This document shows, one piece after another, positions 1,835 through 20,462 of a stretch of 20,462 nucleotides of DNA. This DNA is from Deltaproteobacteria bacterium. Lineage in GTDB: Bacteria; Myxococcota_A; Polyangia; HGW-17. A program made the position numbers and the translations under genes. The number at the start of each line of letters is the position of its first letter. Position 1 is the stretch's first letter. The DNA is taken from the NCBI GenBank assembly GCA_003249585.1, contig QKIM01000589.1, positions 1-20,462 on the forward strand, read 5' to 3'. The notes under the pieces are model-generated. The model was given only the letters and a program-made list of their open reading frames with translations, made no database searches and was not told the origin of the DNA.

Positions 1835-3487
1835 ATGGTGATTCGCAAGTTGTTGTTTGTAATGCTCTTATCCCTGGCCTTTCCCCTGGCTGCCTGTGAC
1901 GACGATTCGGGCAACGGGGACAAGGAGATCTGCGACAACGGGCTGGACGACGACGGGGACGGGTTCATCGACTGCGTCGATCAGGACTGCTTCAGCGACT
2001 CCGCGTGTTCCAGCAACAACGTGAACAATACCAACAACAACAACCTGAACCCCGAGGTGTGCGACAACGGCCTCGACGACGATCTGGACGGCTTCGCCGA
2101 CTGTCTCGATGTGGACTGCGCCGAGGCGTGCACCTACTCGGAGACCTGTGACAACGGGACCGATGACGACGGGGACGGGTTCATCGACTGCGACGATCAG
2201 GACTGCTTCAGCCACCAGGCGTGCGCCGAGCCCGCCGAGGAGATCTGCGACAACGGCATCGACGACGACTGGGACGGCCTGTTGGACTGCCATGACCCGG
2301 ACTGCGCCGACTTCCCAGGGTGCGAGGTCACCGAGGAGATCTGCAACAACAGCCTCGACGACGACGGCGACGGGCTCATCGACTGCGCCGACCCGGACTG
2401 CCAGTGGTTCGACGGGTGCATCGTGCACGACGAGATCTGTGAGAACGGGATCGACGACGATCTGGACGGGCGCGTGGACTGTGACGATCCCGACTGTCTG
2501 GAGGCGGACGAGTGCCTGCCCGGCGTGGAGAACTGCGCCGACGGCCTCGACAACGACGGTGACGGCTTCGTGGACTGCGAGGACCAGGACTGCTGGAACA
2601 GCACAGCCTGCAACCCCGTGGAGGAGATCTGCTGGAACGGCCTCGACGACGACGGCGACGGGCTCGTGGACTGCGAGGATCCCGACTGCAGTTGGGCCGA
2701 GGAGTGCATGTGGGAAGACTGCTGGAACGGGATCGACGACAACTTCGACGGGCTCGTGGACTGTGACGATCCCCAGTGCGCCGGCCTGCCCGACTGCGGC
2801 GTCGTGACCGGAGAGATCTGCAACAACGGCGTCGACGACGACGGTGACGGGGCTGTGGACTGCTACGACAGCGAGTGCTCCCACCTGGCCATCTGCTCCT
2901 CCATCTACGAATATTTCAATCCCAACACCTCGGGGGACAGCTGCGACCTCAGTTACACCAACATCCAGTTCTCCCCCGGAGGTTCGGCGCTCTACGTCTG
3001 GTCCGCCGTCGGCACCAACGGCTGGGCCGTGGAGCCTGGCAGCACCTCGGACAGCTATACGCTGCAGCTGGCCGACGACGACTCCCAGGAGATCGAGTTG
3101 GGCTTCGCCTTCCCCTTCTACAACGGCAGCTACAGCTCGGTCTATGTGGGATCCAACGGGTTCCTCACCTTCGGGTCCCCGGACACCGACTTCACGCCGA
3201 CCCTCTCGGAGTTCCTGCTGGGGTCTCCCCGCATCGCCCTGCTGTGGGACGACTACATGGTCCAGCCCACCTTGCCGGTCATCGTGGACTCCTATCCCGA
3301 GATGGTCGTGCTCACCTACGTCAACGCCTCCATCTTCAACGGTTCTCAGATCCTCAACGTCCAGGTCGTGCTCCACGCCTTCGGCGGCATCGAGATGACC
3401 TTCCTGGACACCACCAACACGGAGGGTATCGTCGGGATCACCGCCGGTGGCGGATCCTGGGCTGCTCCCGAGGTGAATTTCCGCTGA
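1835..3487 (+). CDS. Asp/Cys-repeat lipoprotein (MopE-like metal-binding repeats) with C-terminal beta domain
   Basis: This is a 550-residue predicted surface or periplasmic lipoprotein. GGAGG 6 bases upstream sets the ATG at 1835. The signal peptide ends in the lipobox LAAC with lipidated Cys21, followed directly by three Asp. Residues about 31-354 hold ten tandem repeats of about 30 residues with the core EICDNGxDDDGDGxxDCxDxDC and a fourth Cys, giving about 40 cysteines. The DxDxDGxxDC core resembles calcium-binding thrombospondin type 3 loops and the MopE-type putative metal-binding motif. An Asn-rich linker follows repeat 1. Residues about 355-550 are Cys-poor and rich in Gly, Ser and aromatic residues, as expected of a beta sandwich (for example SSVYVGSNGFLTFGS). 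Calcium-dependent folding and adhesion is a reasonable inference; the actual role is unknown. Confidence 0.85.
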   Translation: MVIRKLLFVMLLSLAFPLAACDDDSGNGDKEICDNGLDDDGDGFIDCVDQDCFSDSACSSNNVNNTNNNNLNPEVCDNGLDDDLDGFADCLDVDCAEACTYSETCDNGTDDDGDGFIDCDDQDCFSHQACAEPAEEICDNGIDDDWDGLLDCHDPDCADFPGCEVTEEICNNSLDDDGDGLIDCADPDCQWFDGCIVHDEICENGIDDDLDGRVDCDDPDCLEADECLPGVENCADGLDNDGDGFVDCEDQDCWNSTACNPVEEICWNGLDDDGDGLVDCEDPDCSWAEECMWEDCWNGIDDNFDGLVDCDDPQCAGLPDCGVVTGEICNNGVDDDGDGAVDCYDSECSHLAICSSIYEYFNPNTSGDSCDLSYTNIQFSPGGSALYVWSAVGTNGWAVEPGSTSDSYTLQLADDDSQEIELGFAFPFYNGSYSSVYVGSNGFLTFGSPDTDFTPTLSEFLLGSPRIALLWDDYMVQPTLPVIVDSYPEMVVLTYVNASIFNGSQILNVQVVLHAFGGIEMTFLDTTNTEGIVGITAGGGSWAAPEVNFR

Positions 3488-3730: not shown

Positions 3731-5242
3731 TTAAATGCGGGAGAGGGAGGAGAACAGTTCGCGGGTGTTCATGACATGGTCGCACCAGGTGCAGGCCACG
3801 GTGTCCGGGCCCATCTTCACGAAGCTGGGGGCGACATGCTCCCGGTGCTCAGGTCGTGAGACACAGCCGCTGTTGGGACAGTGCAGGGACTCGATGCCGG
3901 CGATGGTGTCCGGGAGGGCCAGCGCCAGCTTCTCGATGACCTGGGAGTTGACGATGCGGTTGACCCGGGCTCCGGGAGAGAGGGCGGCCACCAGGGCCAG
4001 CTCGGCCTCGGTGAGGGCCCGATCCTCGATCATGAGCATCCCCTTGATGTTCTCGGGGCGTTTCACGCTGCGCACCGTGGCCGCGCGGTAGATGTCGCCC
4101 CGCTCTTCCAGCTTCAAGAGGCGCGCCAGGAGGGACTCGGCGTAGGGTCGCAGGTGGTCGATGACGACGCCCCGATCCCGGATGGGTCGGATGGAGACGC
4201 CCTCGCGCACCGGTTTCCTAGAGACGGGCAGGGTCGTGAGGAAGGAGTCGGAGGAGTCGATCTCCCTTTGCGCCCCGGCGATGTGGTCGTCGGCCAGGCC
4301 CAGGGCCAGGGCCAGCTGGGCCATGCGCGTGGGGACCCCGTTCCCTGCCTGGGTCTTGTAGAGGGCGCCAGGGTGGTCGTCGAGCTCGGGGAGGATCCCC
4401 GGGAGGGCCTTGTCGATGGGCAACGGGTGCATGAGCCCGAAGCCGGGGCGGGTGCGGTCCATGAGGTCGAGGGTGAAGACGCCGGCCTTCTTGGCCTCCT
4501 CGAACTCCATGGGATCGGGCATGCGCTCGCGCTGGATGCGGGTCTGGTAGAAGATGTCCAGCTCGGGGACCATCCGCTCCAGGGAGGTGTGGAGCACGAC
4601 CTCGGTGCCGCGGGCCCGGGCGAGGTCGGTGATGGCCGCGGGCATGGCCAGGTTGGCCGGGGCGTTGAGATGGAGCGTGTTGCCCGGGAAGAGGGTCAGC
4701 GCCAGCGCCAGGGTGTGGGCCGTGCGACCGTACTTGAGATCACCCGAGAGGCCGATGTGCAGGTGGTCCAGCCGTCCGTGACGCTCGAGGATGGTGAAGA
4801 GGTCGAGGATGGTCTGGGTCGGGTGCTGCCGTTTGCCGTCGCCGGCGTTGAAGACGGGGATACCCACGCGGTTCGAGGCGAGTTTCGCGGCGCCGTCCAG
4901 GGGGTGGCGCAGGATGACGGCGTCACACTGGTAGGCGTCGAACATGTCCAGCGTGTGGGCCAGGGACTCGCCCTTCTTCACCGAGGAACCCTCGATGGAG
5001 CCGAAGCCCGTCACCTGGAGGCCCAGGCGGAGGGCGGCGATCTCGAAGCTGGAGCGCGTCCGGGTGGAATTCTCGTAAAAGAGGAGGGCGACCAGCATGT
5101 CGCGGTCCCGACCGAGCTTGTAGCCGGGGATGTCCCTTCGGGCGAGGGCCTCCTTGAGGCGCCGGGCCAGCTCCAGGATGGAGAGGATCCCCTCGGGGGA
5201 GAGACTGTGGATGTCGATGAGACCGCGCCTAAAAAGAGCCAT
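3731..5242 (-). CDS. pyrBI: Fused aspartate carbamoyltransferase, catalytic (PyrB) plus regulatory (PyrI) chains
   Basis: This enzyme catalyses the first committed step of pyrimidine synthesis, carbamoyl phosphate plus aspartate to carbamoyl-aspartate. It is 503 residues long. The start is set at the ATG read from 5242, with AGGAGG 5 bases upstream; an in-frame ATG at 5302 lacks a ribosome binding site. Residues 1 to about 325 are PyrB: STRT at 59-62 and VKKGES at 88-93 (carbamoyl phosphate site), then HPTQ, the QTRIQRER stretch and MHPLPI. After a short linker the PyrI chain follows, including GVVIDHL and VNRIVNS. Its zinc site is four cysteines at 455, 460, 484 and 487 (CPNSGC and CTWC). 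PyrB-PyrI fusions are known, for example in Thermotoga maritima, but the usual arrangement is two genes. All key residues seem intact. Confidence 0.93.
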   Translation of the reverse strand: MALFRRGLIDIHSLSPEGILSILELARRLKEALARRDIPGYKLGRDRDMLVALLFYENSTRTRSSFEIAALRLGLQVTGFGSIEGSSVKKGESLAHTLDMFDAYQCDAVILRHPLDGAAKLASNRVGIPVFNAGDGKRQHPTQTILDLFTILERHGRLDHLHIGLSGDLKYGRTAHTLALALTLFPGNTLHLNAPANLAMPAAITDLARARGTEVVLHTSLERMVPELDIFYQTRIQRERMPDPMEFEEAKKAGVFTLDLMDRTRPGFGLMHPLPIDKALPGILPELDDHPGALYKTQAGNGVPTRMAQLALALGLADDHIAGAQREIDSSDSFLTTLPVSRKPVREGVSIRPIRDRGVVIDHLRPYAESLLARLLKLEERGDIYRAATVRSVKRPENIKGMLMIEDRALTEAELALVAALSPGARVNRIVNSQVIEKLALALPDTIAGIESLHCPNSGCVSRPEHREHVAPSFVKMGPDTVACTWCDHVMNTRELFSSLSRI

Positions 5243-5387
5243 ATCAACCTCCTGTTTCGGATGTCCCTTTTTAATGGGATATGGCGCCCGGCGCAACTGC
5301 AATTCGGCTCTTTTCGTGGCTGGTCTCAGGGACAGGGCGGTGCCGTGGCAGGTCCGCAGACGACGACGTGTCCTGTACGCCGGTGAT

Positions 5388-10719: not shown

Positions 10720-10923
10720 TCAGTCGTCCTGCAGGGTGGAGCCTTCGGGGGTGATGACGCTGAGCTCCCTGTGCTGGATCATTCTGAGAATTCGTTTGAT
10801 CTGAGCCTCCTCTGCGGCGTCGATGAGCCCGTCGGCGTCGACGTGGTCCATGAACATACGATACTCTTCCTGCGTGAGGACGCCGTCTTCCACGATACGA
10901 TCCGTCAATTCCTTGATATTCAT
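10720..10923 (-). CDS. Small acidic EF-hand-like protein
   Basis: This is a 67-residue cytoplasmic protein without signal peptide. The start at 10923 is chosen for AAGGA with 6 bases of spacing; an in-frame ATG at 11007 would add 28 Pro/Arg/Gly-rich residues without a ribosome binding site. The middle reads YRMFMDHVDADGLIDAAEEAQIKRILRMI: helix, a loop with Asp at positions 3 and 5, Gly at 6, Ile at 8 and Glu at 12 of the EF-hand pattern, then helix. Position 1 is His instead of Asp. The preceding IVEDGVLTQEEY looks like a degenerate partner loop. Calcium binding is an inference. It converges on phosphofructokinase with a gap of 8 bases and diverges from the deformylase gene. Confidence 0.7.
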   Translation of the reverse strand: MNIKELTDRIVEDGVLTQEEYRMFMDHVDADGLIDAAEEAQIKRILRMIQHRELSVITPEGSTLQDD

Positions 10924-11060
10924 GCGCTTTCCTTCTGAGGGTCCACGGGATCGGGGCCCCTCGGAGTGAGGGTCGTGTCTCCCATATTGCCCCACTTCGC
11001 GTCCCAAATCAATCGTTGCACGGTGACTCCCTTTTTGCTAGGGATCATTCAGGAGGCCCA

Positions 11061-11774
11061 ATGCGCACTTCACTGGACAGCCGTCGGAATTTTCTAAAAT
11101 TTTTCGGTACAACGACCCTCGGCCTGGCCGTCGCGGCCTGTGCCGGGAGGGCCGCCCGCGAGGAGGTCACCGCCGCGGAGCTGGCCCTGATCAGGCGCAC
11201 AGGCACCCTCCCCATCGTCACCTGGTCCCCCTCGGCCACTGAGCGCGACGCGGTGCTCAGGCGCAAGGCCGCCCTGGCGGGCAGGCTGAGGCGCCGTGAC
11301 CTGGAGCGCCTGGACGTGCTCATGCGGGCCACGCTCAAGGTCTCCGGGGGGGTGGGACTCGCCGCGCCCCAGGTGGGGGTGAGCCGGCGCATCTTTCTCG
11401 TCGAGCTCCAGTCCGAGCCCAGGCGCGTGGTCACCTGTGTGGACCCGCGGATCATCGAGCGCTCCCGGGAGATGGTGGACGGCTACGAAGGCTGCCTGAG
11501 CATCCCCAAGGTCGGCGGCAAGGTCTCCCGCCACACCTCGGTGACCGTCTCCTACACCACCCTCGATGGGAAGCGGGTCACCTACGTCTCCAAAGGATGG
11601 GAGGCCCGCATCTTCCAGCACGAGTACGACCACCTCGACGGGATCCTCTACGTCGACCGCCTCAAGGGGCCCCTGCTCCCCTACGAAGAGATTCGCCGCC
11701 TGCGCAAAGCCGAGAAGAAGCCCGGCAAGCAGGCCGCCCTCGACCCCACCGCCACCCCATGGGCGGTGATGTAG
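11061..11774 (+). CDS. Peptide deformylase with twin-arginine signal and lipobox (predicted exported lipoprotein)
   Basis: This 237-residue protein has all three peptide deformylase motifs: GVGLAAPQ at 97-104, EGCLS at 143-147 (metal Cys145) and HEYDH at 187-191 (metal His187 and His191, catalytic Glu188). Normal deformylases are cytoplasmic and remove the formyl group from nascent proteins. This one begins with MRTSLDSRRNFLKFFGTTTLG, a good Tat motif (SRRNFLKF), then LAVAAC with Cys27 as the lipobox cysteine. It is therefore predicted to fold with its metal in the cytoplasm and be exported. AGGAGG 4 bases before the ATG fixes the start; extending to 11016 gains nothing. The C-terminal 20 residues are basic then Pro/Ala-rich. 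Substrate outside the cytoplasm is unknown. A housekeeping def gene is expected elsewhere. Confidence 0.9.
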   Translation: MRTSLDSRRNFLKFFGTTTLGLAVAACAGRAAREEVTAAELALIRRTGTLPIVTWSPSATERDAVLRRKAALAGRLRRRDLERLDVLMRATLKVSGGVGLAAPQVGVSRRIFLVELQSEPRRVVTCVDPRIIERSREMVDGYEGCLSIPKVGGKVSRHTSVTVSYTTLDGKRVTYVSKGWEARIFQHEYDHLDGILYVDRLKGPLLPYEEIRRLRKAEKKPGKQAALDPTATPWAVM

Positions 11775-15330: not shown

Positions 15331-16644
15331 ATGACTTCCACGCCCCTCCGCGTCCTCCTCCTTTCGCTGACCGTGGTGTGGTGGGCCGGGTGCAATCTGG
15401 TCCTCGAGCTCGAGGACCCTCCCGTGGAGTGCGGTGACGGGATGGTGCACGGCGACGAGATATGCGACACCGATGACCTGGCCGGACAGACCTGTATCAG
15501 CCGCGGCTTCACCGAGGGTGTCCTCACCTGCGCCGCCGACTGCAGAGGCTTTGTCACCACCCTGTGCGGTCCTCCGACCACCTGCGGCAACGGGACCCTC
15601 CAGACCCCCGAGAGCTGTGACGGGACGGACCTCGAACAGGCCACCTGCGAGAGCCTGGGGTACTATGGCGGCACGCTCGGCTGCGGGGCGGACTGCCGCT
15701 ATGATCTCACCGACTGTGCCGCTTCGGGGCGCTGCGGCGACGGTGTGAGCCAGGGGCTGGAAACATGCGACGGGACCGATCTCGGCGGGGCCACCTGCGA
15801 GAGTCTGGGCTATTACGGGGGTGAGCTCGCCTGCGCGGAGACCTGCGCATACGACACGACGGATTGCGCCACCTACGGGATCTGCGGCGACGATGTTCGC
15901 CAGGATGATCTTGAGGAGTGCGACGGCGTCGACGTCGGCGGCCTCACCTGCCAGGAGCTGGGCTACTCCGGGGGGACCATCGGGTGCACACAGACCTGCG
16001 CCATCGATGCCAGCGGCTGTTTCTACCACCTCTCCTGCGGCGACTCCGTCATCCAGTCCCCCGAGACCTGCGACGGGACCGATCTGAACGGCCAGACCTG
16101 CCTCACCATGGGCTTCTACGCAGGGACCCTGATGTGTCTGGCCAACTGCACCTTCGACCTCACCAACTGCGCACTGTACGGCCATTGCGGCGACAACCTG
16201 CGCCAGGAGGCGCACGAGGAGTGCGACGGCGAGGATCTCGGGCAGGTGACCTGCTCCGACCTCGGGTTTTACGGAGGCGAGTTGACCTGCGGGGCCGGGT
16301 GCCTCTTCGACACCACCGGTTGTCAGGCCTTCGGCTGGTGCGGCGACGGCGTCCGAGACGCCACCAACCTGGAGACCTGCGACGGCACAGACCTGGGAGG
16401 CGTGACCTGCGAAGGGCTCGGGTTCTACGGCGGCGTGCCCTTCTGCGACGGGGCCTGCGGGCTGGACCTCTCGGACTGCGAGGCCGCGGGCCGGTGCGGC
16501 GACGGGGTGATCCAGGGCGGCTTCGGCGAGACCTGCGACGGGACTGACTTTGATGGCGCCGACTGCACCACCCTGGGCCACGGGGGGGGAACCCTCACCT
16601 GCGACGGCACCTGCACCTACGACCTCACCGGCTGCACGGACTGA
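15331..16644 (+). CDS. Cys-rich repeat lipoprotein, eight Myxococcus-type disulfide repeats
   Basis: This is a 437-residue lipoprotein; its ATG lies 1 base after the TPR gene stop, with GTGAGG upstream, so it is probably translationally coupled. The lipobox WAGC follows a short hydrophobic N-terminus. The rest is eight tandem repeats of about 50 residues, consensus CGDGxxQxxETCDGTDLxGxTCxxLGxYGGxLxCxxxCxxDxxxC, each with six cysteines (about 48 in total), and the protein ends right after repeat eight. This is the Myxococcus Cys-rich (DUF4215-like) pattern. The repeats are surely disulfide-bonded outside the cytoplasm and probably form an elongated stalk. No catalytic domain is present. The same repeat type occurs three times in the lipoprotein encoded at 18633-20408. 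Confidence 0.88.
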   Translation: MTSTPLRVLLLSLTVVWWAGCNLVLELEDPPVECGDGMVHGDEICDTDDLAGQTCISRGFTEGVLTCAADCRGFVTTLCGPPTTCGNGTLQTPESCDGTDLEQATCESLGYYGGTLGCGADCRYDLTDCAASGRCGDGVSQGLETCDGTDLGGATCESLGYYGGELACAETCAYDTTDCATYGICGDDVRQDDLEECDGVDVGGLTCQELGYSGGTIGCTQTCAIDASGCFYHLSCGDSVIQSPETCDGTDLNGQTCLTMGFYAGTLMCLANCTFDLTNCALYGHCGDNLRQEAHEECDGEDLGQVTCSDLGFYGGELTCGAGCLFDTTGCQAFGWCGDGVRDATNLETCDGTDLGGVTCEGLGFYGGVPFCDGACGLDLSDCEAAGRCGDGVIQGGFGETCDGTDFDGADCTTLGHGGGTLTCDGTCTYDLTGCTD

Positions 16645-18632: not shown

Positions 18633-20408
18633 TCAGGGAGTGGTGGGGAAGGCCACCTTGGTGGGCTGTGTCGCGTTGCTGGCGCTGCCAAGGCCCGTGG
18701 CGCCGTATTCCCCCTGGCCCCAGCACCAGACCCCGCCCTTGTGCTCGTAAAAGGCCAGGGTGCAGCAGTGGCTCTCGCCGCAGGCGATCCGAGAGAACCC
18801 GGTCCCTTGGGGGATGTTGTCCATGATCACCTGCTGGGGCCACTCACGGCTTCCCGTCTCCGCCCCGTTGCCCAGCTCGCCGAAGTCGTTGCCGCCCCAA
18901 CACCAGAGCTGGTCGGACATGTCCACGCCACAGGCATGGAAGTGCCCGGAGGTCACCTGGAAGATCCCCACGTCCGTGTCGAGCCCCGTCTCGTCGACGC
19001 GCACCAGGAAGTCGGCGCTGGTGAAGCTGTTGTCCCCCAGCTGTCCCGAGCCGTTGCCTCCCACGCACCACGCCTGCCCCTCGTCGGTGCTGCCGCAGGT
19101 GTGATATTGCCCGGGGACCATGGTGCTGAAATCAGTGGATCCCGTGATCATGGAGAGGTCCATGGCGGTGGGCGTCGGCTGGCAGGGGCGTTCAGAGCTG
19201 CACGAGCCAGGAGTATACTCGATGCCCAGGTTGGAGTAGTCGTTGATGCCCCAGCAGTAGGGCGTTCCGCCGTCGGAGACGGCGCAGGAGTGAGCGCCGC
19301 CGGAGAAGACGCTCGCCATGGATTCCAGGAAGGAATAGGTCAGCACGGGTGTCTGGGCGCACGCCGTCGGCGCGCCGCTCCAGTCACAGCTGTCGGGGCT
19401 CGGGTCGGGGAGGGCGAGCTGTCCGTACTGGTTGGCGCCCCAGCAGTAGAGATTGGACAAGGAGGTGAGGACGCAGGTGAAGCCACCGTCGGCGCGGCTC
19501 CCGCCGGCGCTGATGTCCGTGATGCTCTCCCCTATCTCCATGGAGAGCTCCACCTTGACCGGGGTGTATTTGCAGAAGTCGGGGGCGCAGTCACTGTCGG
19601 TCATGGTGACGCCCAGTTCCCCCATGTCCCCCTGCCCCCAGCACCACACATTATGGCTGCGATCCATGGCGCAGGTGTGGTTGTACCCGGCGGCGATGCG
19701 ATAGAATCCGGCAAACCCCGGGAGCCCGTTGGTCTCCACCTTGACGGGGGTGTTGCGGCAGTAGATCCCCATGCCGCACTGGGAGGTGCCGCTCTTGCCA
19801 TCGCCCAGCTGGCCGTAGGAACCTTCTCCCCAGCACCACACGTTGTCCAGGGCGTCGATGCCGCAGGTGTGGGAGCCCCCGGCCGCCAGCTGCACCATCT
19901 CCAGGCAGTCGTCGGTGTTGAAGCCGCAGCCCGCGTCGCAGGCGAGCGTTCCGGCGAAGTATCCGAGATCACCGCAGGTGGTGCCGTTCAGATTGTCGCC
20001 GTCGCACGCTTCGCCCGCCTCGGTCTGCACATTTCCATCTCCGCAGGTCTCGCAGCCCGAGTAGTCGAAGGCGCAGTCGGTGTTGCAGGCCAGGGTGCCC
20101 GAGCCCATGTCCAGGGAGGCGCAGGTGGCGTTGCCGAGGTTGGCGCCGTCGCACTCCTCGTTGGCGTCGTCGATGGCGCCATCCCCGCAGGAGCCCTCGC
20201 ACAAGGTGGTATCGAAGGTGCACTGGGCGGTGCACCCGAGGGTCCCGCCCCACATCCCGAGGGACTGACAGGTGTCCCCGCCGTGGTCGCTGCCGTCACA
20301 CTGCTCGCCCGGATCCACCACGTTGTCGCCGCAGGAGTCCATGTCGTCGTCGTCACAGCCCCCCAGCGCGAGTGCGAAGAAAAGGAGTACGGTCAGTAGA
20401 TTCCTCAT
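18633..20408 (-). CDS. Lipoprotein with three Cys-rich repeats and a seven-blade RCC1 propeller
   Basis: This is a 591-residue predicted surface lipoprotein. The start is placed at the ATG read from 20408 because AGGAG lies 8 bases upstream; the ATG at 20414 would leave only 2 bases. A hydrophobic signal ends in LGGC, then four Asp. Residues about 25-169 hold three six-Cys repeats of the kind found eight times in the gene at 15331. After that come seven RCC1 blades, each with a W/YCxGxxxxGxLG-type core (for example HTCGIDALDNVWCWGEGSYG), enough for a closed propeller. Each blade has a Cys near its start and one in the WCWG core, suggesting a disulfide per blade. Blades 1-4 also have a C-x5 to x8-C loop before a TP pair. 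RCC1 here probably serves binding, not nucleotide exchange. Confidence 0.88.
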   Translation of the reverse strand: MRNLLTVLLFFALALGGCDDDDMDSCGDNVVDPGEQCDGSDHGGDTCQSLGMWGGTLGCTAQCTFDTTLCEGSCGDGAIDDANEECDGANLGNATCASLDMGSGTLACNTDCAFDYSGCETCGDGNVQTEAGEACDGDNLNGTTCGDLGYFAGTLACDAGCGFNTDDCLEMVQLAAGGSHTCGIDALDNVWCWGEGSYGQLGDGKSGTSQCGMGIYCRNTPVKVETNGLPGFAGFYRIAAGYNHTCAMDRSHNVWCWGQGDMGELGVTMTDSDCAPDFCKYTPVKVELSMEIGESITDISAGGSRADGGFTCVLTSLSNLYCWGANQYGQLALPDPSPDSCDWSGAPTACAQTPVLTYSFLESMASVFSGGAHSCAVSDGGTPYCWGINDYSNLGIEYTPGSCSSERPCQPTPTAMDLSMITGSTDFSTMVPGQYHTCGSTDEGQAWCVGGNGSGQLGDNSFTSADFLVRVDETGLDTDVGIFQVTSGHFHACGVDMSDQLWCWGGNDFGELGNGAETGSREWPQQVIMDNIPQGTGFSRIACGESHCCTLAFYEHKGGVWCWGQGEYGATGLGSASNATQPTKVAFPTTP

Positions 20409-20462
20409 GTGCATGTCTCCTGTGAAGGTCCGAGCGTGCCGACCCGAGTCCGCGATGTTTTT

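Follow-up and report, generated by a model that had tools for sequence, protein, structure and literature searches.

A peptide deformylase with a twin-arginine lipoprotein signal and relatives with export signals in distant bacterial groups

The deformylase gene and its N-terminal signal

The window, that is, the whole stretch of 20,462 nucleotides analysed here, carries on its forward strand an ATG-initiated gene (11061..11774) for a predicted exported peptide deformylase of 237 amino acids, recognized from the ORF list and from PF01327 and NCBIfam matches. An AGGAGG ribosome-binding site (11051..11056, forward strand) is situated four bases 5' of the ATG. A phosphofructokinase gene lies upstream, and a DUF2807 protein is encoded downstream on the opposite strand. 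Elsewhere in the window, inspection by eye suggested an aspartate carbamoyltransferase fused to its regulatory chain (3731-5302, reverse strand) and repeat proteins, Cys-rich or RCC1-like, whose starts resemble those of lipoproteins (1835-3487 and 15331-16644, forward strand; 18633-20414, reverse strand).

The catalytic domain (residues 62-202; 11244..11666, forward strand) was delimited by profile search. It matches PF01327 with an E-value of 1.9e-42 and 145 bits (curated cut-off 22.8), and TIGR00079 of NCBIfam with 116.2 bits (cut-off 103.95). Sequence and alignment place three motifs on the forward strand: GVGLAAPQ (residues 97-104; 11349..11372), EGCLS (residues 143-147; 11487..11501), in which the metal ligand Cys145 corresponds to Cys90 of the Escherichia coli enzyme, and HEYDH (residues 187-191; 11619..11633), which supplies the metal ligands His187 and His191 and the catalytic Glu188. 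The protein thus carries the family pattern of GxGLAAxQ, EGCLS and HExxH with a Cys/His/His metal site, and the reading of the earlier note, a deformylase with three intact motifs, holds. Its relatives of solved structure begin at an E-value of 1.5e-26 (6jf6), and it shares with canonical Def (PF01327/TIGR00079) the sequence family, the three motifs and the catalytic residues. The dN/dS ratio (NG86) between the window gene and the same-genus copy is approximately 0.25 (0.290/1.161), so the gene is under constraint; the ratios of three pairs are 0.25, 0.22, and 0.32.

The N-terminus, MRTSLDSRRNFLKFFGTTTLGLAVAAC, combines a twin-arginine motif with a lipobox, both as the earlier note had described them. 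The motif SRRNFLK (residues 7-13; 11079..11099, forward strand) lies in the n-region before a hydrophobic segment, RR recurs in relatives, and TatC is encoded in 25 of 27 genomes with an exported copy, including that of the window. After the hydrophobic segment follows the lipobox VAAC (residues 24-27; 11130..11141, forward strand), whose Cys27 is an invariant column of alignments of 14 and 17 rows. A regular expression joining a start codon, the Tat motif and the lipobox has one match across the window's six frames and none in 300 codon-shuffled windows; its Tat half alone occurs on average 0.043 times per codon-shuffled window. A start-codon artefact was considered and dropped on two observations: codons 2 to 64 include no ATG, GTG or TTG from which a signal-less protein could start (CTG, a rare start, is present at codons 5, 22, 41, and 43), and a signal is kept in kind among the relatives.

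Distribution, phylogeny and signals of the exported relatives

A search profile (A2) built from 17 exported proteins was run over genome samples. In the class of the window, 46 of 240 genomes pass an E-value of 1e-38, and 19 of the 240 reach at least 180 bits, including six of the eight genomes of the window's family. Twenty of the 27 lower-scoring genomes were read, the other seven being unread: 11 have a lipoprotein-type N-terminus and nine lack one. In Bacteroidales, the order of genome G240 (Cryptobacteroides), 41 of 295 genomes pass 1e-44. All 41 proteins were read: L278 and L359 are canonical, and the other 39 are of export type, although in three of them the residue preceding the Cys is non-standard. 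In Bacteroidota as a phylum (that of G240), 10 of 345 genomes pass, nine with a protein exported by reading and one (L340) canonical. In another former-delta group, the phylum of L132, 10 of 193 genomes pass; nine show a lipoprotein-type N-terminus, and L290 is too masked to read. The Myxococcota label of L132 reflects only the catch-all under which NCBI places 'Deltaproteobacteria bacterium'. None of 297 genomes of Acidobacteriota (phylum of L185) passes 1e-46, and among 294 genomes of Planctomycetota (phylum of L154) the single one that passes reads canonical. A scan of genome contigs contributes the best 80 of its 582 matches, so that relatives with a name are few.

A phage origin was considered and dropped. 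Phage deformylases resemble the window protein in being PF01327 relatives (159 of 50,697 phage records and 475 viral stretches), but all 159 phage matches fall below 60% identity and short of 80% query coverage; 80 of the viral loci were kept, and none of the 53 ORFs that passed the motif filter was flagged as a lipoprotein. With L189 as query, 823 plasmid records were matched, all below 60% identity, and in none of the 12 matches listed is an exported copy apparent from the list itself.

In a careful tree of 83 rows, from which six near-duplicates and 20 canonical rows had been left out, 43 exported rows form a clade (UFBoot 100, SH-aLRT 96). A tree of 109 rows groups 48 exported rows in a single clade (SH-aLRT 97), and a tree of 131 rows groups 68 (SH-aLRT 98). 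Members of the window's class, of the phylum of L132 and of Bacteroidota come together in this clade. Unlike canonical Def, the window protein bears a twin-arginine lipoprotein signal and sits inside this separate clade, and it does not belong with the canonical cytosolic deformylases. Seven further exported rows, from large-genome relatives in the class, are placed elsewhere in the 109-row tree, adjoining Arthrobacter enzymes (the second group). A single origin of export appears in 0% of 200 bootstrap trees, and the AU test on a quick tree does not reject it (p 0.18). On these sequence comparisons, two origins of export are favoured.

A uniform script scanned the region ahead of the catalytic domain for a hydrophobic stretch, a basic n-region and a start codon. 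Of the 75 rows in the exported group (two tandem proteins being counted twice), 73 show this export-type N-terminus, versus one of 56 canonical rows, a contrast that is descriptive, since the labels were set before the script and the rows were found partly through N-terminal similarity. Both misses, L034 and L041, show RR and a lipobox by eye, and the one canonical row flagged probably reflects a match upstream of the true start of that gene. A stricter lipobox script flagged none of 159 control ORFs. A lipoprotein-type Cys is present in 63 of the 73 exported rows, seven Bacteroidota rows have a signal-peptidase-I-like end, and three second-group rows were missed by the lipobox script. By regular expression, RR lies within the signal of 17 rows: 14 of the main clade outside Bacteroidota (window included), two of Bacteroidota and one of the second group; in these last three the RR may be fortuitous.

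Export and lipid anchoring, as the earlier note had proposed, are supported by this conservation in kind: 13 other clade members outside Bacteroidota pair RR with a lipobox (by script), and homologues with a Sec lipobox or a signal-peptidase-I signal at the same place likewise point to export. Its further suggestion, that Tat is used so that the enzyme can fold with its metal, does not apply generally, because L037, from the same family, uses a Sec lipobox despite the presence of TatC in its genome. As Tat lipoprotein, Sec lipoprotein and signal-peptidase-I types all occur across the exported group, it looks as if export itself is kept and Tat is not essential; the case of L037 implies that one export route can stand in for another and that it is the destination which is conserved. 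Residues after the Cys that resemble the consensus of a surface-export signal are present in 11 of the 28 lipoprotein rows from Bacteroidota versus none of 35 others. Three exported deformylases (L047, 5401-6564, reverse strand; L048, 4840-6003, forward strand; and L361) have extra sequence ahead of the catalytic domain, and the genomes of L047 and L048 also hold a Tat-type exported copy. An Ig-like domain was considered for the insert of L047 and L048 and dropped, as it has no Pfam match.

The earlier note had also looked to a second, signal-less def in the same genome. This was not found: in the window's assembly (G000; 3.36 Mb, 682 contigs, 73% complete) the window gene is the sole PF01327 match. 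PF02911, the formyltransferase C-terminal domain, is likewise absent from this assembly; it is present in five of the seven genomes examined, and the other negative one is 65% complete. The missing canonical def is weak evidence, because the assembly is incomplete and lacks PF02911 too. Same-genus G001 has three PF01327 matches, of which L023 and L350 read as canonical and L032 as exported. A canonical-reading copy is present in 11 of the 14 exported-copy genomes of a first set, the exceptions being G000, G004 (88% complete), and G012 (65%), and a further deformylase copy is present in all four named exported-copy genomes. The expectation of a canonical def beside the exported one is thereby borne out in most of the exported-copy genomes checked, 15 of 18, a total that covers these genomes only. 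That the window gene is the only def found in G000 could be taken to mean that it encodes the usual housekeeping deformylase of the cytosol, extended at its N-terminus by chance. We regard this as very improbable, given the export-type N-termini across the exported group, the lack of an internal ATG, GTG or TTG start, the two canonical copies beside the exported one in G001, and the gaps in G000, from which the formyltransferase domain is missing as well.

C-terminal tail and active site

The C-terminal helix of E. coli deformylase is reported to bind the ribosomal protein uL22 (PMC9099147). Of the 35 exported Bacteroidota rows, 26 have a tail of no more than 22 residues beyond HExxH, versus none of nine canonical rows of Bacteroidota and Balneolota; the median tail is 17 versus 41 residues and the median net charge 0 versus +7. 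This loss fits departure from the ribosome, because in E. coli it is the C-terminal helix that makes the contact with uL22. Exported rows outside Bacteroidota keep the tail (short in four of 31), as do those of the second group (none of seven short), and in 47 other canonical rows the median tail is 30 residues with a median net charge of 0. The argument from the tail does not extend to the window's own group; in the window's family the tail differs from that of canonical Def in sequence.

At the E. coli-numbered positions G43, G45, Q50, E88, C90, L91, S92, H132, E133, and H136, all 48 main-clade rows and all seven second-group rows agree, although most of these positions belonged to the motif filter by which the rows were picked, so that the fair test lies in the proteins missed by the filter. 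These were read individually. In one Bacteroidales group DGCLS replaces EGCLS, and in seven secreted Bacteroidota proteins (L333-L339) the motif is EGDLS, the metal-binding Cys being changed to Asp. The latter carry a signal of the signal-peptidase-I type. L268, L274, and L356 are tandem lipoproteins with two deformylase domains each; the active site of the first domain is damaged, and the second appears intact except for DGCLS. Because EGDLS and DGCLS variants occur, some exported members may not be standard deformylases.

The Asp replacements in motif 2 and the damaged first domains of the three tandem proteins would be in line with the domain having been recruited to another extracellular amide or peptide bond and having ceased to be a deformylase. 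For the window enzyme we consider such a recruitment unlikely. None of the EGDLS, DGCLS or damaged-domain changes is present in its own subclade, where the catalytic residues are retained, and the residues around the Met pocket of the window copy and its subclade are within the range of canonical enzymes.

Possible roles outside the cytoplasm

Deformylation has been described as a cytosolic step on the ribosome side, and the window enzyme would sit outside. Plant organelle deformylases (1zxz, mitochondrial; 3m6o, chloroplastic) carry a targeting sequence and are comparable in that a deformylase is sent to another compartment. However, theirs enter compartments that make formyl-Met proteins, whereas the window enzyme would leave the translating one. 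In an open-access library, covered through titles and the beginnings of abstracts, no description of an exported, periplasmic, secreted or lipoprotein deformylase family was found. Among PMC9099147, PMC12130866, PMC8567305, PMC12864828, PMC4339577, PMC3094199, and PMC12020853, two record an ordinary deformylase in proteomes of the envelope or of culture fluid: one in the outer-membrane fraction of Ehrlichia, classed as cytoplasmic, and the other, DefB, in the cell-free liquid of Bacillus, with the location "unknown"; the excerpts of both claim no export signal.

The export tags in distant bacterial groups suggest an undescribed deformylation step outside the cytoplasm. It seems to us slightly more likely than not that a second deformylation system, outside the cytoplasm, exists in at least two phyla, namely Bacteroidota and that of the window. 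In this system a dedicated exported family, whose origin would predate the Tat and Sec variants seen today, would edit formyl-Met termini at the envelope or surface, and in the secreted branch the change from Cys to Asp would adapt the metal site to oxidising surroundings.

For the window enzyme itself, we infer localisation, metal, activity and substrate as follows. Judging from its signal, the precursor would be exported via Tat in folded form, probably already metallated. Signal peptidase II would cleave before Cys27, and a lipid anchor would then hold the enzyme at the outer face of the cytoplasmic membrane or else in the outer membrane, where it may hydrolyse the formyl group of N-formyl-methionyl peptides through the metal bound by Cys/His/His, with Glu188 and Gln104 acting as in canonical deformylase. 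The likeliest use would be to unblock formyl-Met peptides for aminopeptidases and peptide uptake; released signal peptides, fragments of envelope proteins and peptides of other bacteria are candidate substrates. We give this account as a whole an even chance. Such an enzyme would also matter for what becomes of the formyl peptides that bacteria release, and for deformylase-directed drugs, as the extra copy would lie outside.

SRP prevents deformylation, and the termini of N-out membrane proteins have been proposed to keep their formyl group, out of reach of cytosolic PDF; released signal peptides may retain it too, and the role of formyl kept on bacterial membrane and periplasmic proteins is stated as not known (PMC5454389, Ranjan et al.). 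An enzyme placed to remove the retained groups makes this role testable. These findings also open a different reading, in which the exported enzyme serves maturation of the cell's own envelope by deformylating N-out proteins of the inner membrane and residual signal peptides, both shielded by SRP from the cytosolic enzyme, and so completes a step left undone by other bacteria. We hold this possible, if doubtful. Some Bacteroidota members look surface-exposed, and the patchy distribution in the window's class speaks against a general need. By the Lol sorting rule, the AG that follows the lipobox Cys suggests sorting to the outer membrane, away from inner-membrane substrates. Because of the surface-exposed appearance of some members and the patchy distribution, we infer that unblocking or scavenging of peptides comes ahead of maturing the cell's own N-out proteins.

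When neighbouring ORFs of 59 loci were clustered (one of the analyses mapped 55 of the 59), no conserved partner gene was found around the exported copies. By eye, an NtrC-type regulator recurs weakly at eight loci, a protein kinase at six and a phosphofructokinase at five. The phosphofructokinase lies near the exported gene in L032, L036, and L311 as well as in the window; three of the five loci belong to the window's family, and the L301 copy is only 26% identical. Annotated neighbours are diverse (chloride channel, chromate transporter, nuclease-phosphatase, OpuAC, M23, M64, and others). An operon with a conserved partner was dropped on these grounds, and the gene looks self-standing. The absence of conserved neighbours fits a housekeeping role in envelope maturation, and with no partner gene nothing favours peptide use specifically.

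The neighbourhood also bears on a role in defence, in which the enzyme would inactivate formylated antimicrobials of competitors, a class that includes microcin C and some bacteriocins, or soak up actinonin-like deformylase inhibitors before they enter the cell. LydA of the lydiamycin gene cluster, an extra deformylase besides the housekeeping one, confers self-immunity to a deformylase inhibitor, so that spare deformylases can serve resistance; unlike the window enzyme, it is an immunity copy within a biosynthetic cluster, and the excerpted text mentions no export signal (PMC12130866). Defence appears quite unlikely here, as no defence or biosynthesis gene recurs among the neighbours annotated or clustered, and the conserved catalytic residues would be unneeded in a mere sponge. 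Beside the deformylase gene, a small divergent ORF (window 10720-11007, reverse strand) has no Pfam or NCBIfam match; it was not found in the other 57 of the 58 loci compared and has a counterpart with 73% identity over 67 amino acids in same-genus L032.
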